Source: Thermodesulfobacteriota bacterium
GTDB lineage: Bacteria > Desulfobacterota > WTBG01 > CAIYCZ01 > CAIRTM01
Length of the DNA: 62,730 bases
Direction of reading: 5' to 3'
Assembly (NCBI GenBank): GCA_028282925.1
Contig: JANQGV010000243.1
Coordinates: 1 to 62,730, forward strand
In this document: one piece after another, positions 15,300-62,730 of the stretch
How positions within the stretch are numbered: the stretch's first letter is position 1
How the letters are laid out: every line of letters begins with the position of its first letter
Position numbers and translations under genes: made by a program
Notes under the pieces: generated by a model
What the model saw: the letters and a program-made list of their open reading frames with translations, nothing else
Databases searched by the model: none
What the model was told of the DNA's origin: nothing

Positions 15300-15453
15300 A
15301 CATCGTGTTTGTGATATCAACTGCACAACGGGCGTTTAAAGAAAAGACCAGCGAGTCGTCGAGCCGGGACAGGCAACAGTCTACTGTTGCACCAGGATGC
15401 CTATTGTACAGAAACAACCGGATGATAACCGCATTCAAACAAAAGGGGGCCAT

Positions 15454-17052: not shown

Positions 17053-17145
17053 GGTGCAACGTTGTCGTACGCAAGACGATCCAGGAACGTATCAGACGCC
17101 ATTGTGGGCGGTGTATCGGTAACTACCAAGCAAGAGGAGAACGCC

Positions 17146-18402
17146 ATGATAAAACATTTTCAAGCAATCACGCGGTATGTTCTGCTGCCGGTTGTGGTGC
17201 TGGCAATTGTGACCGGGGCGTATGCGGCCGAGGTTGTCTTTCCCGTCAACTGCTACAATGGAGAAGAACTGGCCGGGGTGCGTGCATGGGAAAAGCAATG
17301 GGCAGGAAAAAAAATAAGCAGTAAAAATGTCGATTCGGTCAAGGAGTTTATTCCCGACGGTTTGTACAAGCTCATGACCGAAACCGACCGGTGGGGAGAA
17401 AGCTGGTTTGAGATCGCCCCCTATGAATCGTATCCGCAAACACCCGGTACCATCGAGTACACACGAAAGTATTCGCCCCAATGCAAGATTACCGACGACC
17501 GCAACCTGGCGGGGTGGGTAGCCGGTGTTCCCTTTCCCTCCCCAGAATCCGGCCTGCAGATCGGCTGGAACTTCGACTGCTGGAACCGCGGCGATACGTA
17601 TGAGAGCATTTCGCAGGGACACACCGTTGACGGAAGAATCGAGGCGGCCAAGGAATCCGCTCAGCACACCTACCGGATGCAGTTCTCCGGCAGAACCGAC
17701 ATGGACCCGCACCCCGAGATCGACAGGAACAAGCACGATTTGAAATCGTCCCAGTCCTATCACTTTCTGGCGCCTGCCTATGTGGCCGGAACAATGGGGT
17801 TTACCCTCAAATACAAGGATAACGACAAGGAATGGGACAGTTGGACCTGGTCGCCGACAACCCGCAGGATATCGCGCGTGTCCACGGCGCAACGCACAAC
17901 CGTGGCGGGAACGGGTGACATCACCCGCGACGACAACCACAACTGGGACGGTGCCGTACGCCGGAACGTCTACAGGCTGCTGGGCCGGAAAGAAATTCTG
18001 GTAGGCCGTAATATCGACCCGCAAAAGCTTATTTACAATGAGGGTGATTGCCTGTTCGACGGCATACAGCGCCAGCGGATCAACTGTTATGTCGTTGAAG
18101 TGGAGTGTAAGGACCCGGGCTATATTTATAAAAAATCGATCTGGTACGTCGACCCTGAGATATACAACGTCATCTATGCGGAAAAATTCGACCGCTATGG
18201 ACGCCTCTGGAAAATACAGGAACAGATGGAATATGTAGGCACATCCAAACTGGGGTTTGAGCTTGTCGAATTCGGGGGTGTGTACTGTATCGATTATCAG
18301 CGTGTGCATTCGACCCTGTCACAGCGTAAAGAATACAATTCAGGCATCCCGATCAAGCGTAACTATTTCAGCGTCAACGCTTTGCTGCGCCGCGGCAGAT
18401 AA
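17146..18402 (+). CDS. DUF1329-family exported protein
   Basis: 418 residues from the ATG at 17146, preceded by GAGGAG. The N-terminus has a signal peptide (RYVLLPVVVLAIVTGAYAAE). The mature part contains AGWVAGVPFPSPESGLQIGW (about 115-135), YRMQFSGRTDMDPHP and a C-terminal half with DWE-like aromatic strands (SWTWSPTTRRISRVS, IWYVDPEIYNVIYAEKFDRYGRLWK), as in DUF1329 proteins, which resemble the LolA/LolB-type half-barrel and are thought to handle hydrophobic molecules in the periplasm. It follows DUF1302 by 93 bases on the same strand. No obvious lipobox. Role in the locus: carrier or adaptor between barrel and inner-membrane exporter (inference). Confidence 0.85.
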   Translation: MIKHFQAITRYVLLPVVVLAIVTGAYAAEVVFPVNCYNGEELAGVRAWEKQWAGKKISSKNVDSVKEFIPDGLYKLMTETDRWGESWFEIAPYESYPQTPGTIEYTRKYSPQCKITDDRNLAGWVAGVPFPSPESGLQIGWNFDCWNRGDTYESISQGHTVDGRIEAAKESAQHTYRMQFSGRTDMDPHPEIDRNKHDLKSSQSYHFLAPAYVAGTMGFTLKYKDNDKEWDSWTWSPTTRRISRVSTAQRTTVAGTGDITRDDNHNWDGAVRRNVYRLLGRKEILVGRNIDPQKLIYNEGDCLFDGIQRQRINCYVVEVECKDPGYIYKKSIWYVDPEIYNVIYAEKFDRYGRLWKIQEQMEYVGTSKLGFELVEFGGVYCIDYQRVHSTLSQRKEYNSGIPIKRNYFSVNALLRRGR

Positions 18403-18410
18403 TGAGGAAC

Positions 18411-18481
18411 ATCTCCCGCCGGTGTCTGCTGCCACACTCGGCGAGGCGAGTGAAACTGTCACGGCCGGTCTGACGGGAGAT
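18411..18481 (+). repeat. nested hairpin between the DUF1329 and YCF48-like genes
   Basis: Outer arms ATCTCCCG (18411-18418) and CGGGAGAT (18474-18481), with an inner hairpin CACTCG (18435-18440) / CGAGTG (18447-18452). No U-run follows, so it is not a simple terminator. It could protect or partly separate the two halves of the transcript. Confidence 0.5.
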
Positions 18482-18528
18482 TGCACACCGTCAGCCGCCG
18501 GACACTACACAGACAGGATTAACGCACT

Positions 18529-19578
18529 ATGAATGTATTCGTACACATTGATCGTCTTTGTATGCTGGGCATTTTTGCCGTAGCGGTCCTTCTGCCTGCC
18601 TGTGCCGAGCAGCAGGTATCCGAACCGTCCCCAAAAAAGAAAATCATTACCCGGGCCGGTTTGTGCGGTGTATCCGCCCCGGACCCCCGGCATGTGTGGA
18701 TTGTCGGTTTCGGCGGTGAGATTCTGCATTCAGCCGATGGGGGCGACACCTGGGCCAAGCAGGAAAATCCCGCCGATCCGGTCGAAGACGCCTATTATGA
18801 TGTGCATTTTGTAGGCGTACGCCATGGCTGGGCAGTGGGGAAATTCGGTAAGATAGTCTCTACTATCGACGGCGGCACCACATGGACATCCGGCACCCGG
18901 AAAACCGATCACAGGCTGTTTGCGGTTCATTTCAGCGACCGCCGCAACGGCTGGGCGGTGGGCTATTACGGCACAATCCTGCACACCGCCGACGGGGGCG
19001 CAACATGGGAATCCCAGGGATGGGGGGAGGATGCCGTATATAATGATGTTTTCTTTTTAGACAACGGGACGGGCTGGATTGTGGGCGAGTACGGCACTAT
19101 GCTGCACACCACCGACGGTGGACGGAAATGGACAAAACAGGAGTGCGCCGATATTATCCCGCCCGGCATTGAGGACATCTGGCAACCGCCGCCGTCTTCC
19201 CTCTACGGTGTTTATTTCAGGGATGCCTCCACGGGCTGGGCCATTGGTAATGAAGGCCACATTATTTTCACGGAGGACGGGGGTGCGCACTGGCGCAAGC
19301 TCGCTACCGGAACGGATGTGCAGATGTTTCAAATGGCGGTCATGGGCGGCAACGGCTGGGCGGTGGGGCAGCGGGGCACATATCTATGTTCCACCGACAG
19401 CGGCAGAACATGGGCCGTACCAGAACGTCAACTGCCGGCGAAATTCTGGCTGCGGGACATTGCCTTTGCCGACCAGCAGGTCGGGTGGGCGGTCGGTTCG
19501 CGAGGAACCATCATCAAGACCGAAGACGGTGGGCAAACGTGGATTATGATTTCCGGCATCACGCCCCCCGACATATAA
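18529..19578 (+). CDS. YCF48-like beta-propeller lipoprotein
   Basis: 349 residues. The N-terminus has a lipoprotein signal with LLPAC and Cys at 25, so it is probably membrane-anchored on the periplasmic side. The mature part is built of repeated Asp-box/BNR units (ADGGDTWAKQE, IDGGTTWTSGT, ADGGATWESQG, TDGGRKWTKQE, EDGGAHWRKL, TDSGRTWAVPE, EDGGQTWIMIS), each near a GWAVG or GWIVG strand. That pattern defines the YCF48/Hcf136-like propeller, named from a photosystem II assembly factor but widespread in non-phototrophs next to DUF1302/DUF1329/MMPL genes. Its role in such loci is unproven; scaffold or assembly factor for the export complex is an inference. Confidence 0.85.
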   Translation: MNVFVHIDRLCMLGIFAVAVLLPACAEQQVSEPSPKKKIITRAGLCGVSAPDPRHVWIVGFGGEILHSADGGDTWAKQENPADPVEDAYYDVHFVGVRHGWAVGKFGKIVSTIDGGTTWTSGTRKTDHRLFAVHFSDRRNGWAVGYYGTILHTADGGATWESQGWGEDAVYNDVFFLDNGTGWIVGEYGTMLHTTDGGRKWTKQECADIIPPGIEDIWQPPPSSLYGVYFRDASTGWAIGNEGHIIFTEDGGAHWRKLATGTDVQMFQMAVMGGNGWAVGQRGTYLCSTDSGRTWAVPERQLPAKFWLRDIAFADQQVGWAVGSRGTIIKTEDGGQTWIMISGITPPDI

Positions 19579-19684
19579 AACAGAACGGCAATGCGGGACC
19601 CGTCCGTATGCCGCTACTGCCCACACAAGGGCTGTTGTAGCGGGAAAACAGGTGAAACCAGATCATACTTTCGGATAGAACATT

Positions 19685-22039
19685 ATGAAACGATTCGCAC
19701 AATACATATTGAAGCTCCGGCTGCTGATTGTAACACTGTTTACGGCCGTTACTGTTTTTCTGGCATACCAGATGTTCAGCGGTCTTACCGTGGGCACGAA
19801 CTTCGCCGAGCTGCTGCCCCAAAGTCATGACTATGTAAAGCTGCACAAGGAGTTTCGTGATAAGTTCGGAGGCGCCAATTTCCTCGTTATTATGGTCAAA
19901 GTGAAGGACGGAACCATTTTCAATAAAGAAACCCTGAAAAAAATAAAGTTTATCACCCTTGACCTGGAGCGGGTGCCCGGCATCGACCGCTATAAAATTG
20001 TTTCAATCGCCTCGCTAAAGCTGAAGGTCACCGAAGTCAGCACATTCGGTTTTAAATCGGAACCGCTGATGTACCCGGATGTGCCGCAAACCGAAGCGGA
20101 AATGCAGGCGTTGAAGAACAACATATACTCCAGCGAGGCTTTATACGGCAAATATGTATCCCATGACTGTAAAAAGGCCATGATCTATGCCGACTTTTTC
20201 GAAGAGAGAATGGACTATAACGTTGTTTACAAATACCTGGTCGACCTGCGGGCACAGATCGAAGACGAGAACACCAGCCTGCACATTATCGGGCATCCCA
20301 TGCACCTGGGCACCGTTGCCAGCATGACGAACACAATGAACTACGTCATGGCCGGTACGCTTTTGCTGATCGGTCTGCTTATTTACCTCAGCTATCGTTC
20401 GCTGTTCGGCATGGTCATTATTGTCGGCTCTGGTGCCGTTTCACTGGTCTGGGGGTTGGGCTTCATGGCAATCATGGGCTATAACCTCGATCCGCTCATT
20501 TTCGTGATGCCCTTTTTAATAGCCCTCATGGCCTTTCGGCACTCCCACCAGTTGTACAATCGCTTCTATGAGGAATACCTGCAGCACCAGGACCGCAGGA
20601 AAGCCGCTGAAACCATTATCGAACGGATGTTCCTCCCCGGGTTTACCAGTGTGATTACCGATGCGTTCGGTATTGCCATTATTGCCATTACACCGATACC
20701 GTTATTGAAAAACATAGCAATGGCGTGCGCCTTCAGCAGCATCGTAACGGTGCTGGTCGGGCTTATTCTCACGCCGGTTTTGCTGACCTATGTGCCTGCA
20801 TCGAGCCGCTTTCTCGCTCATATAACAAAAGAAAAGAAAAAAGACGAGTTGCGCCGGGGACTTGCCAACCGCTTTGCCGACTGGCTCGGGCCATGGCTGA
20901 TCGGAAGAGGACAAAAACGTATCGGTATTGTTGTTATTCTTGTGCTGATTTTCTCGTTTTACTGGTCCGAACAGATGATTATCGGTGATGCCGAGGTCGG
21001 CTCAAATCTGCTCTGGCCGGATTCCCGGTACAATAAGGACGCCCAGGTGATCAATCGGCATCTGCCCCTTATCAGCCCGCTGTACATAACGGTCATCGGT
21101 GAAGAACGCAAGGATATCCAGGATTATGATGTGTTGATCGACATCGAACGATTTACCCGCTATATGAACCTGAATTCCGGTGCGGTCGGTGCTTCCAGCA
21201 TTGCCAGCATTGTGAAGGTCATGGGTCAGAAGATGCACCAAAATGATCCAAAATGGCTCGGATTTCCCGACACCAAGCGTGAGGCGTGGGTCTATTTCGG
21301 CAAGGCGACCGGTGCAGGCGACCCGGGGGACATGGACAAATACATCGACTATTATAACCAGTTTTCCAGCATCTGGTTTTACTACAAAGACAAAACAGGG
21401 CCGACCATCGTGCGGGCCATCGAAGCCGCAAAGGAATACGTGGCAAAACACGCCAGGCTCCCTGATGGTGTACGGTACAAGCTGGCAGCGGGTGTTATCG
21501 GCGTTGAAGCCGCCATAAACGAGGTTGTGGCCGCAAAGCAGCTCCAAACCCTGCTGGTTGCCCTGGCCGGTGTCTTTGTCTTCTGCAGCTTGAATTTCCG
21601 TTCTCTTAAGGCCGGTCTCATACTGATGCTTCCCCTTGTGCTGTCGAATTTCCTGGCCTTTGCCTACATGGCCGTCAACCAGATCGGCCTGTCGATCTCC
21701 ACCCTGCCGGTTTCCGCGGCGGGAATCGGCATGGGGGTCGACTACGGCATTTACCTTGTCGCCCGTCTGGCTGAAGAACGCAGGAAAAACCCGGACGGCA
21801 CACTTGAAGAAGCATTGATACGGACAATTCAAACCTACGGTAAGTCGATTATCTATATAGCCGGGACCCTGGTAGTGGGCCTGCTTGTATGGACTATTTC
21901 ACCACTGAAGTTCCAGGCCCAGATGGGAATGATGCTGGCAGTTATCCTTTTCCTCAACTGTCTGGGAGCCATTTTTCTGGTGCCGGTACTGGTATTGTGG
22001 CTCAAACCCCGTTTTGTTGCGGGAAACGCTAAACGGTAG
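19685..22039 (+). CDS. MMPL/RND-family exporter
   Basis: 784-residue inner-membrane transporter. TM1 lies at about 12-32 (LLIVTLFTAVTVFLAYQMF), then a large periplasmic loop to about 215, a block of TM helices at about 219-390 (including YVMAGTLLLIGLLIYLSYRS and LVWGLGFMAIMGYNLDPLIF), TM7 near 415-435, a second periplasmic domain, and a final block near 620-780 with GIGMGVDYGIYLVARLAEE, the family's conserved charged TM motif. This two-half layout is the sterol-sensing/MMPL type that moves lipids or hydrophobic compounds. It is the energised component of the locus; proton drive is assumed from the family. Substrate unknown. Confidence 0.9.
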   Translation: MKRFAQYILKLRLLIVTLFTAVTVFLAYQMFSGLTVGTNFAELLPQSHDYVKLHKEFRDKFGGANFLVIMVKVKDGTIFNKETLKKIKFITLDLERVPGIDRYKIVSIASLKLKVTEVSTFGFKSEPLMYPDVPQTEAEMQALKNNIYSSEALYGKYVSHDCKKAMIYADFFEERMDYNVVYKYLVDLRAQIEDENTSLHIIGHPMHLGTVASMTNTMNYVMAGTLLLIGLLIYLSYRSLFGMVIIVGSGAVSLVWGLGFMAIMGYNLDPLIFVMPFLIALMAFRHSHQLYNRFYEEYLQHQDRRKAAETIIERMFLPGFTSVITDAFGIAIIAITPIPLLKNIAMACAFSSIVTVLVGLILTPVLLTYVPASSRFLAHITKEKKKDELRRGLANRFADWLGPWLIGRGQKRIGIVVILVLIFSFYWSEQMIIGDAEVGSNLLWPDSRYNKDAQVINRHLPLISPLYITVIGEERKDIQDYDVLIDIERFTRYMNLNSGAVGASSIASIVKVMGQKMHQNDPKWLGFPDTKREAWVYFGKATGAGDPGDMDKYIDYYNQFSSIWFYYKDKTGPTIVRAIEAAKEYVAKHARLPDGVRYKLAAGVIGVEAAINEVVAAKQLQTLLVALAGVFVFCSLNFRSLKAGLILMLPLVLSNFLAFAYMAVNQIGLSISTLPVSAAGIGMGVDYGIYLVARLAEERRKNPDGTLEEALIRTIQTYGKSIIYIAGTLVVGLLVWTISPLKFQAQMGMMLAVILFLNCLGAIFLVPVLVLWLKPRFVAGNAKR

Positions 22040-38328: not shown

Positions 38329-39897
38329 TTACTCAGTTTTTTTCCCATACCCCCCGCCGCCGGGTGTTTCGATGCGAAGCCGGTCGCCCTGCCGCAGAAC
38401 GGTTTGGAACTTGGACGGCATCAGGGTTGAGGCCCGGTTCATGATTACCGTGTTGGCCCCTTTTTTTCCGGCTGAACCGCCGGAAAGTCCGTAAGGCCCC
38501 CTGGTGCGCCGTTCCGAGATAACCGTTACCTCGGCATCTGAAAGAAACTCTATCTCCCTTATAATTCCATTACCGCCTTTGAAGGAACCGTCGCCTCCGG
38601 ATTCGCCACGTAGAGAGTATTGGGTGACCCGAAGCGGGCAACTGTATTCAAGGGCTTCGGCCGGGGTGTTGAGGGTGTTGGTCATATGAGAGTGAACGGC
38701 ATGTTCACCGGGGCCTTCGGCGGATGCACCCATGCCGCCGGCAATGGTCTCATAATAGGCAAAGGGTTTTGCGTTTCGATGATCGATGCCGCCGATTGCA
38801 ACATTGTTCATGGTTCCCTGGCTTGCTGCCGGAATACGGCCCGGAAGGGCCTGGGCCAAAGCTCCCAGCAGCACATCAACGATTCGCTGAGAAGTTTCTA
38901 CGTTGCCCCCGGCAACAGCAGCCGGAAAAGCGGCGTCGACAATGGTTCCCGGTCTTGTTGTAATGGTAACGGGTTTAAGGCAACCTGCGTTAGTGGGTAC
39001 GTCCTCACCGGTCAAACACCTGAAAACATACAGCACGGCCGAAATGGTAATGGCCCGGACCGCGTTGACGCATCCGGTGGTCTGCGGAGAGGATTTGGAT
39101 AAATCGATGTACGCCGCGTCTCCCTGAATGGTAACGGCAACGTCAATCGTAATGTTGCTTTCCCCTTTTCCGTCGTCTTCCAGTACATCGCCGAACTCAT
39201 AGCAGCCGTCGGGAATGGCGGCAATGCTGTTGCGGGTCAAACGCTCGGCATATGAAATAAGATGCTCGCCATACTCCCGGACGGTGTCTATTCCGAATGT
39301 TTCACACAAGCGCTTCAATTGCTTTATGCCGGTCAGGTTGGCCATGATCTGGGCTGCGAAATCGCCCTCGCGTTCAGCCGGGGTGCGTACATTGCCCAGG
39401 ATGAGATTCATGATATCGCGGTTCAGGATACCGCCCTGGACAAGCTTTACAGGCGGTATGATAAGACCTTCCTGAAAAAGCGATGTTGAAAGAGGCATCG
39501 ATCCCGAGCACATGCCGCCCACATCGGCATGATGGGCCCGGTTGGCGACATAAAATGCCGGTTCATCTGTTCCGGTGAAAACCGGGGCTACAACGGTGAT
39601 GTCGGGCAGGTGGGTCCCGCCCCGGTAGGGATCGTTCAGCGCAATCATGTCACCTTCCTGCAGGTCGGCTTCCGCAATGGCGGCCTGAACCGACAACGGC
39701 ATTGAGCCCAGGTGTACGGGAATATGAGCGGCCTGGGCTATCATATCGCCCCTGCTGTCGAACAGGGCGCAGGAGCAGTCGCGGCGTTCCTTGATGTTGG
39801 GGGAGTAAGCGGTACGGGTGAGAGTTACACCCATTTCTTCGGCAATTGAGATGAAGCGGTTTTTGAAGATCTCCAACTGGATTGGATTTGTTTTCAT
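38329..39897 (-). CDS. hyuB: hydantoinase B / oxoprolinase-family subunit
   Basis: 522 residues. Starts NPIQLEIFKNRFISIAEEMG and contains NIKERRDCSCALFD, GDMIALNDPYRGGTHLPDI, a VANRAHHADVGGMCSGSMP motif, NVETSQRIVDVLLGAL and, near the end, GGDGSFKGGNGI and TPGGGGYG, all typical of the HyuB subunit. With HyuA it forms an ATP-dependent amidohydrolase of the N-methylhydantoinase/5-oxoprolinase family; carboxylases for acetone or acetophenone are relatives. It starts five bases after hyuA. The substrate cannot be read from sequence. Confidence 0.93.
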   Translation of the reverse strand: MKTNPIQLEIFKNRFISIAEEMGVTLTRTAYSPNIKERRDCSCALFDSRGDMIAQAAHIPVHLGSMPLSVQAAIAEADLQEGDMIALNDPYRGGTHLPDITVVAPVFTGTDEPAFYVANRAHHADVGGMCSGSMPLSTSLFQEGLIIPPVKLVQGGILNRDIMNLILGNVRTPAEREGDFAAQIMANLTGIKQLKRLCETFGIDTVREYGEHLISYAERLTRNSIAAIPDGCYEFGDVLEDDGKGESNITIDVAVTIQGDAAYIDLSKSSPQTTGCVNAVRAITISAVLYVFRCLTGEDVPTNAGCLKPVTITTRPGTIVDAAFPAAVAGGNVETSQRIVDVLLGALAQALPGRIPAASQGTMNNVAIGGIDHRNAKPFAYYETIAGGMGASAEGPGEHAVHSHMTNTLNTPAEALEYSCPLRVTQYSLRGESGGDGSFKGGNGIIREIEFLSDAEVTVISERRTRGPYGLSGGSAGKKGANTVIMNRASTLMPSKFQTVLRQGDRLRIETPGGGGYGKKTE

Positions 39898-39902
39898 GTT
39901 TT

Positions 39903-41879
39903 TTATGAATGTATGCTTATGATTATATTGCCAAACTCATCAACTGTTCCACTGGCAAAGGGCGGGATGACAATTGTTGATGAATATTCGGTTATAATAG
40001 CCGGTCCCTGGATTTTGTTGCCGCAAAGCAACAGGTCTCGGTTTGCTACCCTTGTGCTGTGCAGGGAGCCCTCAAAGTAGACGTCCTGCAGGCCTGAATG
40101 TGCCGCATCCGGCGGAGCGGCCGATCCGCTTTGAATTTTCCGCAGGGCCGGTTTTTCCGGGACGGCCCTGGCACGCAGTCTGGTGTTGACTATTTCTACA
40201 GCAGCCCCGGCAGTGGAGTAGCCATACGTTTTTTCATGTAGGGCATGAAAGCTTTCAATATACTCGTTGCCGAAAGGTACCAGCAGTTCATATGATTGTC
40301 CTTTATAGCGCATGTCGAGCAGTCGCTCGAAGGTGATCTGCCCGGGCTGAATGCTTTCGGCGGCAAAATCCCTGCGGGCATGGTCTTCCAGGTCCTTAAA
40401 ATACGGCTCAAGAGTGGCAGACGGAGCACCTGTTTCTTCACGCATGATTGTCCGTGAATAGTCCTTGATACTGTCGGCCAGGAGCATACCGGTTGCGGAA
40501 AGAATGCCGGGATCGCGGGGAACCAGGACCCGGGGTATGCCCAGCAGACGTGCCAGGAATACCGCGTGCATGCCTCCGGCACCGCCGAATGAAAAGAGGG
40601 TAAAGTCGGCCGGGTCGTAGCCGCGTTCTACGGAAATGACACGAATAGCCTTTTCCATGGCGGTATCGGCAATGTCGATAATTCCTTGCGCCAGTTCCCG
40701 TGGTGCAAGCCCCAGTTTTTGTGAAAAGGGTTGAAAAAAAATATCCAGCCGTTCCGGTTGAAGGTGCATGGCGCCGCCGAGGAAGCGGCCGGGCAGAAGC
40801 CGCCCCAGGTAAAGGTTTGCATCGGTAACCGTAATGCCGGTACCACTGCCGTAGCAGATGGGGCCGGGATCGGCCCCGGCGCTTTGGGGGCCGACTTTCA
40901 AAGCACCGCCTGAATCCACCCATGCAAGCGAGCCTCCGCCGGCCCCGACAGTGTGGATGTCGATCATGGGAAGCTTTACAGGGTGGCCGGCAATGGTAGA
41001 CTGAAGCGAAAGGGTGGGGCCGCCGTCTACCAGGGACACATCGGTGGACGTGCCGCCCATGTCAAATGTTATCAGCCGGCTGTAACCGGCCGCCCTGCCG
41101 ATTGCATGGGCTCCCACAACGCCTCCGGCCGGACCCGAAAGAATGGTTCTGACCGGTTCTTGCATTGCCGTTTCAGCGGTAATACATCCGCCGTTGGACT
41201 GCTTGATGCTTATGCCGTCATCGGCACCGAGGTGGTCCTTCAACCGGGAAATGTAGGATTGCATGACAGGTGCAACATAGGCATTGATAACGGTTGTGGA
41301 AGTGCGTTCGAATTCCCTGAACTCGGAAAGTATTTCATGCGAGAGGGAAACCGGTATCGAGAGACTTTCAAGCATCTCACCCGCCTGTTTTTCATGAATC
41401 GGGTTTGCAAAAGAAAAGAGGAAGCAGACCGCAACGGACTCCACCCCGCTCTGTCGGATATCGGTAATTATGCTTGCCAGTTTTTCCGTATCGAAGGGTT
41501 CAAGGATGTTTCCGTTTGAATCAATGCGGCCCGGAATGCCGAAACGCGCATTTTCAGGTACAAGACACGGCGTTTTTTTATAGGTGAGGTCATACAAATG
41601 CCGTCTGTTCTGGCGGCCGATTTCGATACTATCTTCAAAACCGCTATTGGTTATCAGGGCGGTTTTACTTCCCGTGCTCTCAAGGAGCGCGTTGGTGGCA
41701 ACGGTTGATCCATGCACGATTTGAAGCGGGTTCTGGAGTGCAAGCTGTTTGAGGGCACTCAATATGGCACGGGAGGGGTCTGAAGGAGTCGACAGGGTCT
41801 TATAAACCCCCCATGTGTCGTCGGCAGTATATATAATATCGGTGAAGGTGCCGCCGGTGTCGATGCCGATCTGTATCAT
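39903..41879 (-). CDS. hyuA: hydantoinase A / oxoprolinase-family subunit
   Basis: 658 residues of the ASKHA (actin-like ATPase) type. Motifs: IGIDTGGTFTDIIY at the N-terminus (phosphate 1), HGSTVATNALLE, LLSGPAGGVVGAH-like ILSGPAGGVVGAHAIG, FDMGGTSTDVSL (phosphate 2) and FSFGGAGGMHAVFLAR (adenosine). These are the hallmarks of HyuA. It uses ATP to activate a cyclic amide or related substrate for HyuB. First gene of a two-gene unit. No transporter or regulator for it is adjacent. Confidence 0.94.
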   Translation of the reverse strand: MIQIGIDTGGTFTDIIYTADDTWGVYKTLSTPSDPSRAILSALKQLALQNPLQIVHGSTVATNALLESTGSKTALITNSGFEDSIEIGRQNRRHLYDLTYKKTPCLVPENARFGIPGRIDSNGNILEPFDTEKLASIITDIRQSGVESVAVCFLFSFANPIHEKQAGEMLESLSIPVSLSHEILSEFREFERTSTTVINAYVAPVMQSYISRLKDHLGADDGISIKQSNGGCITAETAMQEPVRTILSGPAGGVVGAHAIGRAAGYSRLITFDMGGTSTDVSLVDGGPTLSLQSTIAGHPVKLPMIDIHTVGAGGGSLAWVDSGGALKVGPQSAGADPGPICYGSGTGITVTDANLYLGRLLPGRFLGGAMHLQPERLDIFFQPFSQKLGLAPRELAQGIIDIADTAMEKAIRVISVERGYDPADFTLFSFGGAGGMHAVFLARLLGIPRVLVPRDPGILSATGMLLADSIKDYSRTIMREETGAPSATLEPYFKDLEDHARRDFAAESIQPGQITFERLLDMRYKGQSYELLVPFGNEYIESFHALHEKTYGYSTAGAAVEIVNTRLRARAVPEKPALRKIQSGSAAPPDAAHSGLQDVYFEGSLHSTRVANRDLLLCGNKIQGPAIITEYSSTIVIPPFASGTVDEFGNIIISIHS

Positions 41880-45943: not shown

Positions 45944-46274
45944 AAAAGGGTACGAAATGACCGGTTTGCCGCGCTCCGCACCTTATCCCGCTCCGTGATG
46001 TATTCTCATATCGGAATATTTTTTACACGTCCTGCCGATACGTTTAAATGTTTACATAATTCGTTGATGATGGATAAAGGCAGTTTGCGATTATTGTTTT
46101 GTTAATAATAATTATTGTTGATAATTTGATGGTTTTAATTCTTTTTCCTAAAAATATATAATTAATCCGTCTATATTTTTAGCCTTGACATACGTATATT
46201 AAAATCCTATGTAAACATACTATTATTATTTTTAAAAATATATATAAATACTATTACTCAACAAGGGGGAGATT
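45944..46274. other. AT-rich gene-free region with promoter
   Basis: Very AT-rich between the kinase and the repeat protein. Contains the promoter at 46185-46213; nothing else recognised. Confidence 0.5.
46185..46213 (+). promoter_or_regulatory. sigma-70-type promoter of the Cys/Asp repeat protein
   Basis: TTGACA (46185-46190), 17-base spacer, TATGTA (46208-46213), leader of about 55 bases, then AAGGGGGAG before the ATG at 46275. Confidence 0.65.
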
Positions 46275-49200
46275 ATGAGACGTAAAGGAGATGTAAAAAG
46301 GCGGTTATTCATTGTATCTATTTTATTTTCCTTTATTATTTTTGCGTTACCCCAGAGTGCTTTCAGTGGTGAACCGGTTAAACGTTCTCCAATTTTTGAA
46401 AAAGCACTGCAACGCACCATCAAGGCCTGGAAAAAGCAGAGTACCATTATTAAAATGACCCAGACCGAAGATGAAGTATTACAGCAGTTGAACAAACAGG
46501 CAACCCGGATGATAACCAGCATGATTGAGGCCGCCCAGGAGGACAATGGGACTGCCAATACCCAGGATCCCGGCAGCAGGTTATGTCAGTTGCTTCAGGG
46601 TGAAACCATCGACCCCGACGACCCCCGTTGTAAAGAAACCTTTGACGCCTACGACCGCGACTGTCGCAAGACGTTTGATCCCCAGGACGAGGGCTGTGAG
46701 CCGACCCTTGATGCAGCGGACCCCGATTGTACGCCGTTGCTGACCATCATAACCTTCGATGCCGAGGACGACCGCTGTATTACCCTGAATCCGGTCAACG
46801 CCGATTGCGGTATTTTTGCAACCTTTGATCAGCAGGATCCCCAGTGCCGCATAACGGTTGATCCGGACAAACCCGAATGCCGGGCTACCATCGACCCTGA
46901 CAACGACAACTGTTCCGACACCTCGGATCCCGAGGATGACCGCTGTATCACTCTCGACCCCGACAAGGAAGAATGCCAGGTGACGCTGGATGTGCTGGAA
47001 CAGCGCTGCAAGCTGACCATCGACCCCGACGATCTGTATTGCAGGGAAACCCTGGACCCCGACAACGATAACTGCTCCAAGACTCTCGATCCGGCCCAGG
47101 GCTGTAACCCTACGCAAGAGCCGGATGATAACCGCTGTGTGACCCTGGATCCGGATAAGGACGAGTGCCGGGAAACATTCGACGCCCAGCAGCAGAACTG
47201 TAAGCCGACTATTGATTCAGATAAATTTGAATGTCTGGAGACCTTTGATCCCGACGAAGAAGAGTGTAAAGAAACCCTTGATCCTGAGAATGTCGATTGT
47301 ACCGTGGATCCGGCCGACAATCGTTGCGTGACCATCGACCCGGAAAAGCCGGAGTGTAAAATCACCTTTAACGCCAATGACGTTCGTTGCGAATTCACCA
47401 TCGATCCCGATAAATGGGAGTGTAAAGAGACCTTTGATCCGCAGTTGCCTGAATGTGAAACCATCGACCCTATGAAGCCCGAGTGTGAGGACGCTACCCA
47501 GAATCCGGAAGACGGCCGCTGTGTGACCACCGACCCTGAGGACGAAGAATGCAAGATCACATTCAATGCCCTTGAGCTGCGCTGTGAAATGACCAAAGAC
47601 CCCGACATGTGGGAGTGTAAGGAAACCTTTGACCCGGCGCTGCCCGAATGTGAAACTATCGACCCCAGGAAGGAGGAGTGTAAAGACGCCACTCAGAATC
47701 CCGAAGACGGCCGCTGTGTGACCTTCGACGTACAGACCGATGAATGTAATGTGACCTTTGACGGCAACGATTTCCGGTGCACGTTTACCATCGATCAGGA
47801 GGCCCCGGAATGTAAGGACACCTTTGATCCCATGAACGAAGAATGTAAAACCATCGATCCCATGAAACCCGAATGTGAGGACGCCACCCGGGATGTTGAA
47901 GACCCGCGCTGTACCACATTCGACCCGGAAAAAGAGGAGTGCCGGATAACCTTTGATGCCCAGGACGCGATCTGTGAGTTTACGAAAGACCCCGAAGCAT
48001 GGGAATGTAAAGACACCTATGATCCCATGCAGGATGAGTGCCGGACCATTGATCCTATGGATGCCGATTGTCCCAATGCCACCCAGGACGTTGAAGATCC
48101 GCGCTGCTACACCCTCGATCCGGAAAAGGAAGAATGCCGGGTAACCTTTGATGCCCAGGACGAGATCTGCGAGAGTACCAATGACCCGCGCAAATGGGAG
48201 TGTAAGGAGACCTTTGATCCGGCGCTGCCCGAATGTGAAACCATCGACCCCATGAAGCCCGAGTGTGAGGATGCCACCAGGGACCCGAATCAGGAAATTT
48301 GTGTAACGCTCGACTTTGAAAGTCCGGATTGTCAGGTGACCTTTGACGGCCTTGATGAGCGCTGCAAGTACACCGAGGACCCGGCCAAACCCGAGTGTAT
48401 GGAAACCGTAGACGCTGCCGGAAACATCTGCGAAGGCGAGCCGACCCTGAATCCGTATAAACCCGAATGTGAAGACAATATCGAGCCGACAAAGAACCCC
48501 AAAGACCAGGCCTGCCTGGATACGCTGACCTTTGATCCGGAAAACGAACTGTGCCAGCCCACCAAGGATGTCAACGATGACTGGTGCCGTGAAACAACCG
48601 ATCCGGCCAATCCTGAGTGCGAGGACATTATTTTTACCAAAGACCCCCAGGATCAGAAATGCGTGACCTGGGATGCATCGGTGCCGGAGTGCCGGCCCAC
48701 GGAAACGGTTGACCCGACCTGCATCTTCCCCACGGAAGAGCCCGAGGATCCAGAATGTATTACCATGAACCCTCTTAAACCTGAGTGTCAGGACTATACC
48801 AAGGACCCGCAGGATTGTGAGCCTGAGCCGACCATCGACGCGGCCGGCAATGTATGTGTTACCGAAGATCCTGAACTGTGCGAACCTGAACCGACCCTTG
48901 ATCCAACGGGGACTGATTGTGTTACTAAGGATCCTGAGCTGGATGAATGCAAGGAAGTAACCCTTGATCCCAACGAACCGAATTGCGTTACCAATGATCC
49001 TGAAATGGATGCATGCAAACCCACACAGGACGCTACAAACCCTGACTGTTTAACCAGAGACCCTGAACTGTGCGAACCTGAGCCGACCATTGACCCGGCC
49101 GGCAATGTATGTGTTACCGAAGATCCTGAAATGGATGCATGCAAAGAGCCGCAACCCACACAAGATGCAACCAACTCGGAATGCCAGCCGACACAGGATG

Positions 49201-49376
49201 TAAGCACAGCGTGTCAACCCGAACCGACCAAAGACCCTGAAAATCCGGAATGCCAGGACCCCCCTACCCAGGATCCTGATGATCCGGATTGTGAGGCTCG
49301 GCCCAATCTTTGCCCGCAACCATTGATAGAGTGCCCGAATGGAGAATGTGTGGCCACCGAGTCTGACTGTCTGTAA
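46275..49376 (+). CDS. secreted Cys/Asp-Pro repeat protein, unknown family
   Basis: 1033 residues. A signal peptide (about 1-31; RRLFIVSILFSFIIFALPQ, cleavage near AFS-G) is followed by a helical head of about 75 residues and then, from about 110 to the end, an almost unbroken chain of short units of 10-12 residues of the form C-x2-T-x-D-P-x(3-5)-C, for example CKETFDPQLPEC and CRATIDPDNDNC. I count about 86 Cys, one per unit, with very many Asp/Glu and few hydrophobic residues. Residues about 351-675 form five 65-residue higher-order units. The tail changes to EPEPTxDP units and ends CPNGECVATESDCL. It suggests an extended, acidic, possibly metal-binding or disulfide-laddered surface filament (inference). 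It has its own promoter and terminator. Confidence 0.8.
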   Translation: MRRKGDVKRRLFIVSILFSFIIFALPQSAFSGEPVKRSPIFEKALQRTIKAWKKQSTIIKMTQTEDEVLQQLNKQATRMITSMIEAAQEDNGTANTQDPGSRLCQLLQGETIDPDDPRCKETFDAYDRDCRKTFDPQDEGCEPTLDAADPDCTPLLTIITFDAEDDRCITLNPVNADCGIFATFDQQDPQCRITVDPDKPECRATIDPDNDNCSDTSDPEDDRCITLDPDKEECQVTLDVLEQRCKLTIDPDDLYCRETLDPDNDNCSKTLDPAQGCNPTQEPDDNRCVTLDPDKDECRETFDAQQQNCKPTIDSDKFECLETFDPDEEECKETLDPENVDCTVDPADNRCVTIDPEKPECKITFNANDVRCEFTIDPDKWECKETFDPQLPECETIDPMKPECEDATQNPEDGRCVTTDPEDEECKITFNALELRCEMTKDPDMWECKETFDPALPECETIDPRKEECKDATQNPEDGRCVTFDVQTDECNVTFDGNDFRCTFTIDQEAPECKDTFDPMNEECKTIDPMKPECEDATRDVEDPRCTTFDPEKEECRITFDAQDAICEFTKDPEAWECKDTYDPMQDECRTIDPMDADCPNATQDVEDPRCYTLDPEKEECRVTFDAQDEICESTNDPRKWECKETFDPALPECETIDPMKPECEDATRDPNQEICVTLDFESPDCQVTFDGLDERCKYTEDPAKPECMETVDAAGNICEGEPTLNPYKPECEDNIEPTKNPKDQACLDTLTFDPENELCQPTKDVNDDWCRETTDPANPECEDIIFTKDPQDQKCVTWDASVPECRPTETVDPTCIFPTEEPEDPECITMNPLKPECQDYTKDPQDCEPEPTIDAAGNVCVTEDPELCEPEPTLDPTGTDCVTKDPELDECKEVTLDPNEPNCVTNDPEMDACKPTQDATNPDCLTRDPELCEPEPTIDPAGNVCVTEDPEMDACKEPQPTQDATNSECQPTQDVSTACQPEPTKDPENPECQDPPTQDPDDPDCEARPNLCPQPLIECPNGECVATESDCL
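47325..48299 (+). repeat. five tandem 195-bp coding units
   Basis: Units begin with the Cys codon at 47325, 47520, 47715, 47910 and 48105; each is exactly 65 codons with six Cys at positions 1, 11, 22, 33, 44 and 54 and ends in a NPEDGR- or VEDPR-like segment (the fifth in DPNQEI). A sixth diverged unit starts at 48300. Exact spacing with diverged sequence shows selection on length as well as on the Cys pattern. Confidence 0.88.
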
Positions 49377-49409: not shown

Positions 49410-49450
49410 AAGCCTTCTTTTATAAAAAAATATAAAAGAAGGCTTTTTTT
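49410..49450 (+). terminator. rho-independent terminator of the repeat-protein gene
   Basis: Perfect 15-bp stem AAGCCTTCTTTTATA (49410-49424) / TATAAAAGAAGGCTT (49431-49445), loop of six A, then a T run. 33 bases past the stop codon. Confidence 0.9.
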
Positions 49451-57554: not shown

Positions 57555-57613
57555 CTAGTTACCCACTCCCCTTTTTACTCACCGGCACAACGAAGAGGGG
57601 GAGATAAATGCAA

Positions 57614-58030
57614 CTACTCACCAATAATCTTCACAAGCAACCGCTTCTTGCGATTGCCGTCGAACTCGTAATAAAAGATGTGCTCCCAAGGGCCGAGATG
57701 GAGTTGGCCGTCAGTGATCGCTACAACGACCTCCCGACCCATGATCTGTCGTTTCAGGTGGGCATCGGCGTTATCTTCAAAGCCATTGTGCTGATACTGG
57801 CTGTGCGGTTTCTCCGGGGCCAGCTTTTCCAGCCAGACCTCATAGTCGTGGTGCAGGCCAGATTCGTTGTCGTTAATGAACACGCTGGCGGTAATGTGCA
57901 TAGCCGAACAGAGCACAAAGCCGTGCTGTACGCCGCTATCCTTCACCAGCCGCTCGACTTCTTGATGTATGGACACGATAGCCCGCCGCTTGGGTATATT
58001 CATCCATATTTCTTTGGTCAAGTGCTTCAT
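57614..58030 (-). CDS. yjbQ: YjbQ/UPF0047-family protein (secondary thiamine-phosphate synthase enzyme)
   Basis: 138 residues, normal length: [72 protein letters not shown] and an [14 protein letters not shown] end. The family has a His-rich site (MHITAS; DAHLK) and weak thiamine-phosphate synthase activity in vitro; its true role is uncertain. It stands just inside the suspected acquired region and is diverged from the truncated copy 59 bases downstream. Confidence 0.9.
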
Positions 58031-58486
58031 AACTTGCCAATGGTAAATCTAACACGCTTCACTGTCAAGCGTTATCCCAACCCTACTATGGCCGACGACA
58101 GTGATTCTACGTGTTTTGGGCATATTGGGACATCATACAGAGGATCGCCACGCAACACTTAGCCTTAAAAAATAGGTAGTCCCGGTCTTGGTTCCTTGTG
58201 GACAGAACCTCGGGGAAAAGGCGGTGATCAAAGGGTTGGCGACGATAATAGGTTGAATCGGGCGATGCATGCTAATCTGATTGAGGAAATGGAAAAGTGC
58301 ATCGCCAAAGACTGAAAAGCGGTAGTTCCCTACCGATTTGCATGTTCGCAAATAGAAGGGGAACGCCATAACGACTATTAAGGACGGGTTTGCGGGCAGC
58401 TCCCGCTGTAGCATTACCGCACTTGATGGCCTTCTTCGTCCTCAACCATTCGTGCGGGGTGCGGCCCCAATTAGGAGGACGAAACC
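58031..58486. other. gene-free or degraded region
   Basis: No ORF with start signal and family match. Short frames on both strands read like shadows or remains. It ends with TTAGGAGGACG, the ribosome binding site of the recombinase. Confidence 0.4.
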
Positions 58487-59203
58487 ATGAATCGTAAAAG
58501 AGGCAAACGACCCGCAGACCGGCATGCTCGTAGGCTTGCTGCACTTCGACCAAGTACTTATATTCGACCAATCGACACAATTATGCCGGGCAATAAGGTG
58601 AGGCTATGGTGCCGGGTATCAAGCGGCGCGCAGGACGCGAGCGGCAACAATACTGACCAAGAAGCCGATATGCGTGCAGCGGTCGAGGCAAGAGGCGGAA
58701 GTGTGGTAGACGTGGATGCCTATGCTGGTAGGATAAGTGATGCCGACGCTTCACTCTACGAAGTGGCCAACCGTGCGGATCGAGAAGGTTCTGTGTTGCT
58801 AGCTGAATGTACAAGCCGCTTTGCTCGTCACGCTGATTACCACCCCAAACATCGGCCCCACCTTGTAGCTGGAGCCAGCGCATTGCGCAACCTGCGTTGG
58901 ATATGCGGTGAGGTGCCATTGGTAACACTGCTTGATCCTGACGCCACTTGGAAAGAGGAGCGATCACACCAATCCAAGCGAGGGCAGCGACGAAAAAAAA
59001 GGCGAGGTGGCCGTCCACACAGACCCAAGCCCGGTTAAAATAAGCAACGGCGGCTCAAAGCCCTGCCCAAGGTCCTGTGGATGAAGTGGGTGGGAATGAG
59101 CAACCGTGCCATCGCGAGGGCGCTCGGAACCGACGAGAAGAACGTGCGGCGATTTTTGGACACAACCAAGAGGACGAACGTGGCTAATGCCTATTTTGTC
59201 TAG
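58487..59203 (+). pseudogene. serine recombinase (resolvase family) interrupted by an in-frame TAA
   Basis: ATG at 58487 follows AGGAGGACG. The catalytic domain begins near residue 38: VRLWCRVSSGAQD has the serine-recombinase motif with S45 and Q49 spaced as in resolvases, and AECTSRFARH carries the paired Arg (RxxR). After GRPHRPKPG an in-frame TAA (59036-59038) stops translation at 183 residues. The same frame then stays open for 55 codons to a TAG at 59201 and encodes a helix-turn-helix, GMSNRAIARALGTDEKNVRRF, the expected C-terminal DNA-binding domain. So one nonsense change splits a normal resolvase of about 238 residues. The truncated form would lack DNA binding. Confidence 0.75.
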
Positions 59204-59473
59204 GGTTACGCCACGTACGCATGGTTGTGACCGCAGCCCAAAACCGTTATAGGCCCCAAGGGCAGCAGACGTACACCAGTCCCGGGCAGCCAAGCTGGGA
59301 AATGTCACCTACTGAGAAATCCAAGCCAGTTGCGTTTACGTGCACACTCTTGACGCTGATGCGAACATGAATTATAACATGTTACTAAGAAAGGAGTTGC
59401 TCTTGTTTTAATACCTCCGTACAGTTTGGCTGTAACATTCGTAACTTTCACATACCCGAAAGGAGAACGAGCA

Positions 59474-60196
59474 ATGGCCGCAACGAAGAAAGCTACGAGC
59501 AGCACCACCGGCACCGTGCGGGTGGAGTACGACTATGGCACCAAGGGAGAGCGTCGCAGCAAGGAGTTCGAGGACGACGGTAAAGCAAAGAAGTTCATTG
59601 CCGCCAAGGAACGGGCCGGTAAGAACCCAAAGGTAAGGAAGGTAAGGAGCAAGAGCAAAATGAAGCCCAAATTCAAGGTCACGGCCGTTACCGAAATTGA
59701 TCTAGGCCCCGGCGCAGCTCATATCACTGAGACAAAAGCGAAGGAACCGAAAAGACCCACCGCACTGCAAACACTGAAAAACCTGTGGGCCGTTGGGGAA
59801 TATCGGAAGGCACTCAAACTCGCCGCCTCGTGGTCCCGCCTTGGCAAGCATAAGGACGCGATCAAGAGCGGGTGGGACGCTACCGTCAACGACCGTATTT
59901 ATGAGCAGATGGGCAAGAACCCAGACGCTATGTATGCGGCCGGTCTGGCGGCAGTGGCGACCCGCTATGAATTGCCACCGGCTACGGTAACCACCAAAAA
60001 GCCGACCACCGGCAAGACAAAGGAGCAAATCAAGAAGGCTACACCGAAAACACCCACCGTGCCCGGCGTGCGGCCGACAAGGACGAGGCCATACCTCGCA
60101 GGTACCATCATTACCAAATATGGGCTGGCCGCCGGTGTGACCGATGCAATGGTGGCTGAGTTAGATGAGGAGTACGGCAAGCCAAACCCCACCTAA
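59474..60196 (+). CDS. basic protein of unknown function in the acquired region
   Basis: 240 residues from the ATG at 59474, preceded by AAAGGAGAACGAG; the frame is open 48 bases further without a ribosome binding site. The first 60 residues are very basic and read GTVRVEYDYGTKGERRSKEF, then KKFIAAKERAGKNPKVRKV, a short alpha/beta unit; about residues 90-175 are helical (TLKNLWAVGEYRKALKLAAS, LGKHKDAIKSGWDATVNDRIY); the rest is Thr/Pro/Lys-rich. I do not recognise a family with confidence; proteins of this look occur on mobile elements. Nucleic-acid binding is plausible from charge. Confidence 0.6.
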   Translation: MAATKKATSSTTGTVRVEYDYGTKGERRSKEFEDDGKAKKFIAAKERAGKNPKVRKVRSKSKMKPKFKVTAVTEIDLGPGAAHITETKAKEPKRPTALQTLKNLWAVGEYRKALKLAASWSRLGKHKDAIKSGWDATVNDRIYEQMGKNPDAMYAAGLAAVATRYELPPATVTTKKPTTGKTKEQIKKATPKTPTVPGVRPTRTRPYLAGTIITKYGLAAGVTDAMVAELDEEYGKPNPT

Positions 60197-60768
60197 AGCC
60201 AGTTTTGCCTGAAGAACGCATGGCATTCATGTCGGGCATTTGCCGGGGTGGCCGAGGACGACATCGATTAACATAATGTGTAAAAATCAGCACTTGACCT
60301 TACAGTGCTCATGAAGTAGTTTTGACTTGGCTTTACAAATGGCCTATAGGGCAAATTGCTATAAGTCACAATAGCATTGAAATTCCTGACCGTTAATGAT
60401 ACGACAGATAATAATATAATCTTCCAACACAGCGTCTGTTCAGATTTTTATCGCTAACATGAAATCCTGGGTAGTGCTAATTTTTTATGATTATCAAACG
60501 TTAATTAGCAACAGCGGTATGAACAATCGGAATATGCTGTAACATTTTAAGCTGATCAACTTTGCTTAGGCCCGGAGCTGAGGTTTTTATCTTAACGTAC
60601 AAAATGCTTGCATGTGAAGGAATATGGCGGTATAGAAATGTTCAGACTAGTTCATTTCAGCTCATTCTTGTTCGCCTTTCAAATTTATTTACAAAATCAT
60701 CACACCACGCCAGTCGATGTGGGTTCGATGGCCGGTTATCAAACCTTTGCCCAAAAGGAGCACTGGCC
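60197..60768. other. AT-rich gene-free region
   Basis: No convincing gene. The frame of the downstream gene is open from 60562 but the good start is at 60769. Nothing else recognised. Confidence 0.4.
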
Positions 60769-61605
60769 ATGGAGTCTGGAAAAACAAACAAAGATAATGA
60801 GCGGGCCAGCGGGGCAGACGTGGTTAAGCTCCTGCGCCTCGGCTACAAACGGGAAGACCTTCCCGGCAACCTGACGAAAGCCGAAGCGGAGCGCATGGCT
60901 GCGGCCCGACCGCACGGTCGAGGGAAGTCTCTGTCGCCCGTCTGGACTGTGGGACTGATCTCCGCTGTCCTCATTGGGACAATCCTTCTCGTTTGGTCAC
61001 AAGATAGTAGCGACACATCAAGTGAGCAACAAACCAAATTTGAAAAACAAACCCAGGAAGAATTAGAGCGGATGGAAGCAGTACTTAATCTTTCGGAACT
61101 GGAGAAGGCGAACCTGGAGAAAGCATTTATAACCAGTAATGACGCCTTTATACAGTGGAGGGACACCAAGGGAAAAGAGCTGAATAAATTAAAAGGGAAG
61201 GTTGAAAAATTTTCTAAAACCCGTAATGTATCCGGTGCCCTGAAATCCATTGACCAAGCTGCCCCAGCTTTCAAAAGTATGAACCAAATTATGAAACAGC
61301 ACAGAATATTGGTCCGTGATGCACTATCACCCTCGAATCAGATAGCCTGGAATGCCCACCAAGTGTCCGAGGAATTGCTCAAATACATGGACCAGCTGGC
61401 ACTTACAGAGAAACAGTTGGAACAAATCCACGAAGTATCAATGGTACAAGCCTCTGAATCGAATAATAAAAAACGTCCTCTCTTAACTGCCTTCAACGGT
61501 TTGGAAAAACAAGTGGAGAAAACTGTGCTGACAAGTGAGCAACGTCAGGCGTATAAGGATATAAAAGAAGCAAACCCCTTGCGTAACATTTTTCTCTTTC
61601 TCTGA
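60769..61605 (+). CDS. single-pass membrane protein with coiled coil, unknown family
   Basis: 278 residues from the ATG at 60769 with AAAAGGAG eight bases before it. Residues 1-50 are charged and cytoplasmic-like (VVKLLRLGYKREDLPGNLTK, AEAERMAAARPHGRG), a TM helix lies at about 59-78 (TVGLISAVLIGTILLVW), and the remaining 200 residues are mostly helical, Lys/Glu/Gln-rich with a likely coiled coil (FEKQTQEELERMEAVLNLSE and following, and later QKxLxxIHEVS-type stretches). No enzyme motif. It may be a structural or sensor protein of the element. Not recognised. Confidence 0.6.
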   Translation: MESGKTNKDNERASGADVVKLLRLGYKREDLPGNLTKAEAERMAAARPHGRGKSLSPVWTVGLISAVLIGTILLVWSQDSSDTSSEQQTKFEKQTQEELERMEAVLNLSELEKANLEKAFITSNDAFIQWRDTKGKELNKLKGKVEKFSKTRNVSGALKSIDQAAPAFKSMNQIMKQHRILVRDALSPSNQIAWNAHQVSEELLKYMDQLALTEKQLEQIHEVSMVQASESNNKKRPLLTAFNGLEKQVEKTVLTSEQRQAYKDIKEANPLRNIFLFL

Positions 61606-62380
61606 ACCCTGGAATATGGTCGTGTGATCGCGGAGCAGACAGGATCAATAGGCTGAAATAAAAGCAAAAACTCTGTAAAAAAGCCCTCAGAATAGGCTTA
61701 GGTTAATGATTTTGTGGGCAAAATAGAACTATTAAGATAATTTGTAACAAAAACATGCTGCGGACAAGCCGCAGATGTTCGCGTTAAAATGGTCCATTTT
61801 TAGAAATTTTAAAGGAATCGAAAACCCCACATTATGTCTATCTTTGAACTATATGACCATTTCCCGAGAGGGTGTTGCTTTCTTTTGTTATTGTTGACCA
61901 GAATCCTAAAATTCGACACTTAGGGATGATTATCCTATCTCTGAGGTGGATTGAGATCATAATTTTAACGAATACCAAATGTAGTCTTAAATTTCCTGAA
62001 CTAAATGAAAAATTCACTTATTGAATCATAAATCTACAAAATTGTATCTGACTAAAAGTTGATTTTTCATGTTTTTATAAAAAATAAAGTTTTATTAAAC
62101 TCTCGAATTAGACCAAAAGTTTGCATGCGCATGGCATCCGTTATCCCGTCCAGCCAATCTCGTCACCCTCATATATGAAAGCAATGAGCCGCCAAAAGGG
62201 ACTCGCGTAAAAAAAAATTAAAATTTTTTTAGGCCCATAAACCCTTTGTTTCCAGTATGTTGCGTAATTTTGGGACAAAATGGCCCAGTTTGAATTAGGA
62301 ACTCATTACGTATTATAGGTACGGGGCATTTCCCGTTCACGGCATAAACGTACCGTAAAAACCAAATTAAAGGAGACCAG
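61606..62380. other. AT-rich gene-free stretch
   Basis: About 775 bases, strongly AT-rich, with stops in all frames. No repeat, RNA gene or promoter I can defend. Confidence 0.5.
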
Positions 62381-62497
62381 ATGATGATAAACAAAGGATT
62401 CGGATTTGAGCAGCGTCAGTTACCACCAGAAATCAAAGCACGGTTTACCGCTAGGGAGGCCGAACGGAAGCGCTTGGCCAGAAGGAAGCGAGAATAG
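62381..62497 (+). CDS. 38-residue basic peptide
   Basis: Starts MMINKGFGFEQRQLPPEI at 62381 with AAAGGAGACCAG directly before the ATG, a strong ribosome binding site, and ends in a run of Arg/Lys-rich helix (TAREAERKRLARRKRE). It overlaps nothing else credible. A second 9-residue frame starts two bases after its stop. Small basic peptides of this kind often precede mobile-element genes; function unknown. Confidence 0.4.
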   Translation: MMINKGFGFEQRQLPPEIKARFTAREAERKRLARRKRE

Positions 62498-62525
62498 ATG
62501 CAAAAATGGAGAAAGGTGTCGGAAT

Positions 62526-62616
62526 AGTAACGCTTTTGCTTGCAGCTTCGGTGCTGGATGTTATACAGTAACGCTTATTAACAATAGCGTTACTAATACT
62601 GCAATTTAGCACCGAA
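62526..62616. repeat. nested inverted repeats plus direct repeat
   Basis: AGTAACGCT occurs at 62526-62534 and 62567-62575 (direct, 41 bases apart) and inverted as AGCGTTACT at 62586-62594. The last two form a 9-bp stem. Outside them TTCGGTGCT (62547-62555) pairs with AGCACCGAA (62608-62616). It could be a recombination, replication or regulatory site, or an RNA structure before the next gene. Confidence 0.6.
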
Positions 62617-62630
62617 AGGAAAATGAAACG

Positions 62631-62730
62631 ATGACAACCGCAGTTCATACCGGTAACACCAAGTGAACAAAGCTGCCACCCGAGCCGCTTGACCGTGATG
62701 AAATCAATCGTTGCTGGCGGCATGCAGCAA
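62631..62730 (+). pseudogene. possible tyrosine recombinase start with in-frame stop, cut by window edge
   Basis: ATG at 62631 runs ten codons (MTTAVHTGN...) to TGA at 62664. The same frame continues TKLPPEPLDRDEINRCWRHA to the window end, which resembles the opening of integrase domains (P-L-T-x-x-E-I-x-x-L). About 20 residues are too few for certainty, and the true start could lie after the TGA. Confidence 0.25.

Follow-up and report, generated by a model that had tools for sequence, protein, structure and literature searches.

We found that a gene for a Cys/Thr repeat protein heads a three-gene module in the window, the whole 62,730-nucleotide stretch of Thermodesulfobacteriota DNA analysed here. 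The gene is followed by a terminator and then by the genes of two polytopic membrane proteins, A and B, which are homologous to each other and contain GIFT domains (Table 1). By sequence comparison, this is a conserved and duplicated module in which Cys-Thr repeat proteins are linked with a pair of GIFT-domain membrane proteins. Our best explanation, to which we give about an even chance, is that the repeat protein is a secreted, probably abundant structural surface polymer served by this dedicated pair. Beyond a preliminary description of the same DNA, we add the invariance of Thr, the super-repeat of 65 aa and the conservation of the three-gene module.

Table 1. Features of the repeat gene and its module in the window (G003 and G004 are the two other carrier genomes)
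Feature	Position	Strand	Details
Shine-Dalgarno AAGGGGGAG	46263..46271	+	Strong; read directly in the sequence
Cys/Thr repeat protein gene	46275..49376	+	ATG start, 1,033 aa, 86 Cys; orthologs 66% (G003) and 52% (G004)
Putative Sec signal peptide, residues 1-31	46275..46367	+	Basic start, hydrophobic stretch, AFS/GE junction; own reading
N-terminal non-repeat domain, residues 32-100	46368..46574	+	Conserved SPIFxxALxR motif; alignment
First, irregular repeat units, residues 101-224	46575..46946	+	
Seven regular super-repeats, residues 225-676	46947..48302	+	65 aa (63-65), six Cys/Thr units each
Irregular Thr/Asp-Pro/Cys units, residues 677-1013	48303..49313	+	
C-terminal cap ...C.NG.CVATESDC, residues 1014-1033	49314..49373	+	Conserved in G003 (alignment)
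Intrinsic terminator after the repeat gene	49410..49445	+	Stem AGCCTTCT/AGAAGGCT; stem also in G003 and G004
Membrane protein A, 788 aa	49594..51960	+	About 8 TM + GIFT + TM + GIFT; Pfam, hydropathy, model, Foldseek
Membrane protein B, 842 aa	51979..54507	+	Homologous to A, two GIFT-type domains; Pfam, hydropathy

Judging from its orthologs, the frame at 46275-49376 is a real gene under purifying selection. The G003 ortholog (JANQFE010000017.1, a Thermodesulfobacteriota MAG of another genus) is full-length and 66% identical with its repeats in the same register, and the G004 ortholog (JAJRXD010000134.1, a Deltaproteobacteria MAG) is 52% identical. The dN/dS between the window protein and the G003 ortholog is about 0.26, an approximate value that rests on YN00 because the NG86 dS is saturated. 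The super-repeats of the window and G003 proteins are 0.68 identical at the same position and 0.50 between non-orthologous copies; therefore the array is an old one whose register has been maintained. Those of G004 are homogenised, with 0.70 identity within the protein.

Long antisense ORFs over the same DNA might suggest no gene at all but a low-complexity DNA repeat left open by chance. Such ORFs are expected for codon-periodic repeats. The protein-level conservation across the genera, the purifying selection, the ribosome site and the terminator all speak against this idea, whose chance is next to nil and which is already refuted because the orthologs exist.

All the Cys lie beyond residue 103. 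The protein is strongly acidic, having 272 D+E against 93 K+R, a pI of 4.05 and a net charge of about -180. Its N-terminus reads as a Sec signal peptide, and a similar putative one is aligned in both orthologs. These agree with the preliminary description of a secreted, acidic protein of 1,033 residues with about 86 Cys, the count being exactly 86. A profile of the N-terminal domain, searched among 58 relatives, matches only the window's own genome (two proteins), G003 and G004. No anchor domain was found in the window repeat protein.

The repeat unit had been described as CxxTxDPx(3-5)C at every 10-12 residues. The Cys periodicity stands, since the Cys-to-Cys spacings of 9-13 residues amount to 87%, with a maximum of 35% in 1,000 shuffles, and 65 of the 85 spacings are 10-12 residues. 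What had been missed is the 65-aa super-repeat and the invariance of Thr. The autocorrelation peaks at lag 65, and the true period is 65 aa, made of six units of 9-12 residues. The window protein holds about 80 short units with one Cys each, the usual one being x-x-T-x-[D/N]-P-x4-C.

We aligned 24 super-repeat copies taken from the three genera. Each of the six Cys and six Thr positions is unchanged in 24/24, and those of Asp and Pro are nearly so. Compared with the window protein, the G003 ortholog conserves 98% of Cys, 89% of Thr, 76% of Pro and 68% of Asp. Hence, the 'Cys/Asp-Pro' repeat is better named the Cys/Thr repeat, as Cys and Thr are invariant and Asp-Pro is secondary. The motif T-x-[D/N/C]-P is common to and enriched in every repeat type examined, for example with 56 observed versus 11.5 expected in the window protein and 34 versus 9.6 in the G004 protein P0007. 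A longer register-shifted alignment fell out of register and was left aside.

Pfam has no family for the window repeat protein at E ≤ 1, and NCBIfam and PDB gave no significant match to it, nor did PDB to a profile of the repeats. The earlier statement that the unit matches no known repeat family thus held in the profile search. The PDB profile matches to the Nab2 zinc fingers (E 0.09-0.11) were rejected as a coincidence of Cys spacing. Searches with the repeat protein in plasmid, phage and viral-contig sequences found nothing, no catalogue searched describes the Cys/Thr repeat, and in literature searches neither the repeat nor the module turned up. Structure prediction had also been proposed, and AlphaFold2 on two super-repeats gave no confident or interpretable fold (pLDDT 44), so the model was discarded.

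The order of repeat gene, A and B is conserved in the window's genome, in G003 and, spanning a contig break, in G004, while the outer flanks differ among the three genera. The G003 genes upstream of the module resemble topoisomerase VI by our own reading. The G004 assembly breaks inside near-identical repeats, with its repeat gene upstream of the same pair; its contiguity is inferred because the G004 contigs C104 and C174 overlap over 52 residues at 100% identity.

As to the taxonomic spread, a check foreseen in the preliminary description, the repeat profile and the membrane protein B have one and the same distribution: of 395 phylum genomes, 3 have both and the others neither, six genomes of the same family among them. 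The sample for A was smaller with 148 genomes, and A was found in both carrier genomes included there. The three carriers are related, so their occurrences are not independent events, and the co-occurrence is based on three related genera plus one paralogous locus. Weak phylum matches in G037, G175, G209, G263 and G317 were discarded as YD-repeat-like or low-complexity sequence rather than relatives.

A strong hairpin with a T-run lies 3′ of the repeat gene at all 4 of 4 loci, including the second G004 module. The window terminator folds with a z of -5.4, a stability that none of 200 shuffles reaches. The G003 and G004 hairpins escaped the terminator scanner, which limits the loop length, and were revealed by folding. 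Rfam finds no RNA in the locus. Since the terminator is combined with a strong ribosome site, the repeat protein would be made in excess of its partners.

The hydropathy scan suggests that the membrane proteins A and B each start with about eight TM segments and continue with a first GIFT-type domain, some two further TM segments and another GIFT-type domain. In A, the two soluble GIFT domains cover residues about 280-505 and 590-760. In A, the Pfam GIFT, DUF4350 and ABC_transp_aux models score above cut-off, and PF23355 reaches 39-51 bits in A and B versus a cut-off of 27. AlphaFold2 modelling of A with eight sequences gave a mean pLDDT of 68, rising to near 90 over blocks of the soluble domains. 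In Foldseek against PDB, this model matches the IFT52 GIFT domain with target TM-scores of 0.59-0.67 and E down to 3.5e-7, and sugar-acting enzymes are also among the best matches. Pfam, PDB sequence and Foldseek thus support A and B as GIFT-domain proteins of the GldG/IFT52/OST48 type. They score 14.0 and 20.7 bits with the GldG equivalog TIGR03521, far from its cut-off of 389.85, and an exosortase EpsH assignment of the TM region gained no support, as PF09721 matches nothing genome-wide at E ≤ 10.

G004 contig C98 carries a second, diverged pair, whose B copy is 32% identical to the window's B and whose A copy is 30% identical to the window's A. Just upstream of this pair is the gene of another secreted Cys-rich protein, which has 465 aa, PTxCP repeats and a dockerin end. 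The gene order is that of the first module, and a terminator is again placed between the repeat gene and the pair. The SPIF N-terminal motif is absent from the second module, so the element common to both modules is the Thr-Cys repeat itself. Another TxCP-repeat protein of over 900 aa with a GEVED domain (C98, L082 7872-10571, +) is transcribed divergently from the nearby second module and runs off the contig end.

Outside G004, P0007 is matched mainly in its C-terminal dockerin part. Three G004 genes on contigs C173, C102 and C78 match only this dockerin-type part at 54-60% identity, and from such matches several secreted proteins of G004 may carry dockerin-type tails. Two plasmid matches to the TxCP protein P0008, in Streptomyces and Borrelia at 25-30% identity, look compositional.

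The window's genome encodes a paralogue of 1,138 aa on another contig (C104, L017:8260-11676, -). It shares the SPIFxxALxR N-terminus but has other Cys repeats, T-x-N-P-M-D-x-x-C and CDPC, and a CFI-box-CTERM domain at its C-terminus. No membrane pair adjoins it, so the pair is not needed beside every such protein. A Pfam 'Ectatomin' match on this paralogue (E 1.9e-8) was taken as compositional, as no stretch passes alone. A few genes away, the same contig encodes a 785-aa multiheme cytochrome with carboxypeptidase-regulatory domains (L017 3349-5706, +).

If the repeat protein is the structural surface polymer, its about 80 units, usually xxTx[D/N]Pxxxx-C, would line up in a long acidic chain. 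Covalent or metal linkage through the invariant Cys could stiffen the chain, and the invariant Thr could either form a turn in the structure or be a site of modification. Outside the cytoplasm, the GIFT pair would recognise the Thr/Cys repeats and act in exporting, assembling or decorating the repeat protein. Here, we infer from the sequences the Sec export, the surface location and the action of the pair on the repeats. The source organisms probably live in anoxic sediment, judging from their phylum.

The Thr invariance equals that of Cys, T-x-x-P occurs in all repeat types, and the G003 protein B has a weak, sub-cut-off OST48_N match. These would fit the pair belonging to an O-glycosylation system, decorating one Thr per unit to make a mucin-like, sugar-coated polymer. 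A sugar-binding role has been proposed for the GIFT domain of Wbp1, an oligosaccharyltransferase subunit (PMC7226087), which also favours this decoration. However, Pfam finds no glycosyltransferase domain in the pair, and the invariant Thr fits a purely structural turn as well. The sugar-acting enzymes among the Foldseek matches of A point to sugar too, but their matched part is the non-catalytic trimerisation domain. We consider the Thr glycosylation an unlikely alternative.

Alternatively, the Cys thiolates and Asp/Glu could be ligands of soft or divalent metals from the sulfidic sediment, the protein being a metal store or a mineral nucleator whose chain would fold upon metal binding. The acidic, Cys-rich and disorder-like composition suits this, as does the odd number of 85 Cys in the mature G003 ortholog, not all of which can therefore pair within one chain. 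VKOR, searched for in the three carrier genomes, was not found, which favours metals as well and counts against disulfides. On the other hand, the window protein's repeats are free of CxC, CxxC and His, single Cys about 11 residues apart are unlike known metallothioneins, no metal-transport genes adjoin the repeat gene and the Thr invariance is left unexplained, so the metal role is very unlikely. Neither CxC nor CxxC occurs in the window, G003 and G004 proteins, and CxxC is present only in the own-genome paralogue. Quite unlikely is also a plain disulfide-stiffened stalk or adhesin with the membrane pair as a general neighbour. It has a precedent in TraA of Myxococcus xanthus, whose stalk of more than 70 Cys is thought to be stiffened by disulfides (PMC12045341), but the window protein has neither a recognition head nor a MYXO-CTERM, and the pair is linked in two paralogous modules. 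The disulfide-laddered or metal-binding filament of the preliminary description stays a hypothesis in view of the pLDDT of 44, the odd G003 Cys, the VKOR result and the missing CxC, CxxC and His.

The proposed structural polymer with its dedicated pair matters in several ways. Membrane pairs of one type accompany two different Cys-Thr repeat proteins, which gives a handle on the function of DUF4350/GIFT membrane proteins. If confirmed, the polymer would add a covalently stiffened or mucin-like surface material to the uncultured Thermodesulfobacteriota and provide a very regular 11-residue unit for protein design. A bolder and improbable proposal is an undescribed system, in which a Cys/Thr surface polymer with a mucin-like composition (per unit one invariant Thr, mostly within T-x-x-P, and one invariant Cys) is exported and glycosylated or assembled by the dedicated two-GIFT pair. 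By analogy with oligosaccharyltransferase, the GIFT domains would have the repeats as their substrate, and the system would come in two or more paralogous versions, TxDP and TxCP among them.

Elsewhere in the window, an apparent cluster of DUF1302, DUF1329, YCF48/BNR-repeat proteins and an MMPL transporter lies in a row at 15397-22039, and at 38329-41879 (-) a Pfam-assigned hydantoinase B adjoins a hydantoinase A-like ORF by our own reading. The gene density falls at about 57600-62700, possibly an integrated element, where the tested ORFs at 58487, 59426 and 60562 have no Pfam match.

Among the known systems, the pair shares GIFT/DUF4350-type domains with GldG, IFT52, OST48/Wbp1 and DUF4350 (arCOG01314). 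It differs in being a pair, each with two GIFT-type domains and about eight N-terminal TM segments, and in that no ABC ATPase, vWA or AAA gene was seen adjoining it. A prediction of 2015 places some DUF4350/GldG-like proteins in a secretion complex (PMC5898192), a context that points to export as a possible role of the pair.

For the repeat protein, metallothionein (0 CxC, 0 CxxC), multiheme cytochrome (0 CxxCH) and the RHS/YD repeat (no Pfam match) were rejected. The CFI-box-CTERM domain (NF041770) that ends the own-genome paralogue is absent from the window protein. Thrombospondin type 3 repeats are likewise tandem, acidic and Cys-containing, but the window protein has 0 DxDxDG in its repeat region and no Pfam match, bearing out the earlier view that the likeness goes no further than Asp and Cys.

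TraA is a secreted bacterial surface protein with a tandem Cys-rich region, as the window protein is predicted to be. The TraA repeats are reported as confident AlphaFold β-hairpins, accompanied by a recognition domain and MYXO-CTERM (PMC12045341), whereas the window protein has one Cys per about 11 residues, an invariant Thr, no sorting tag and no confident fold. The NCBIfam and Pfam models of TraA-type repeats and MYXO-CTERM do not match it. By analogy, the window protein would work most like the Cys-rich stalk of TraA, yet it is no member.
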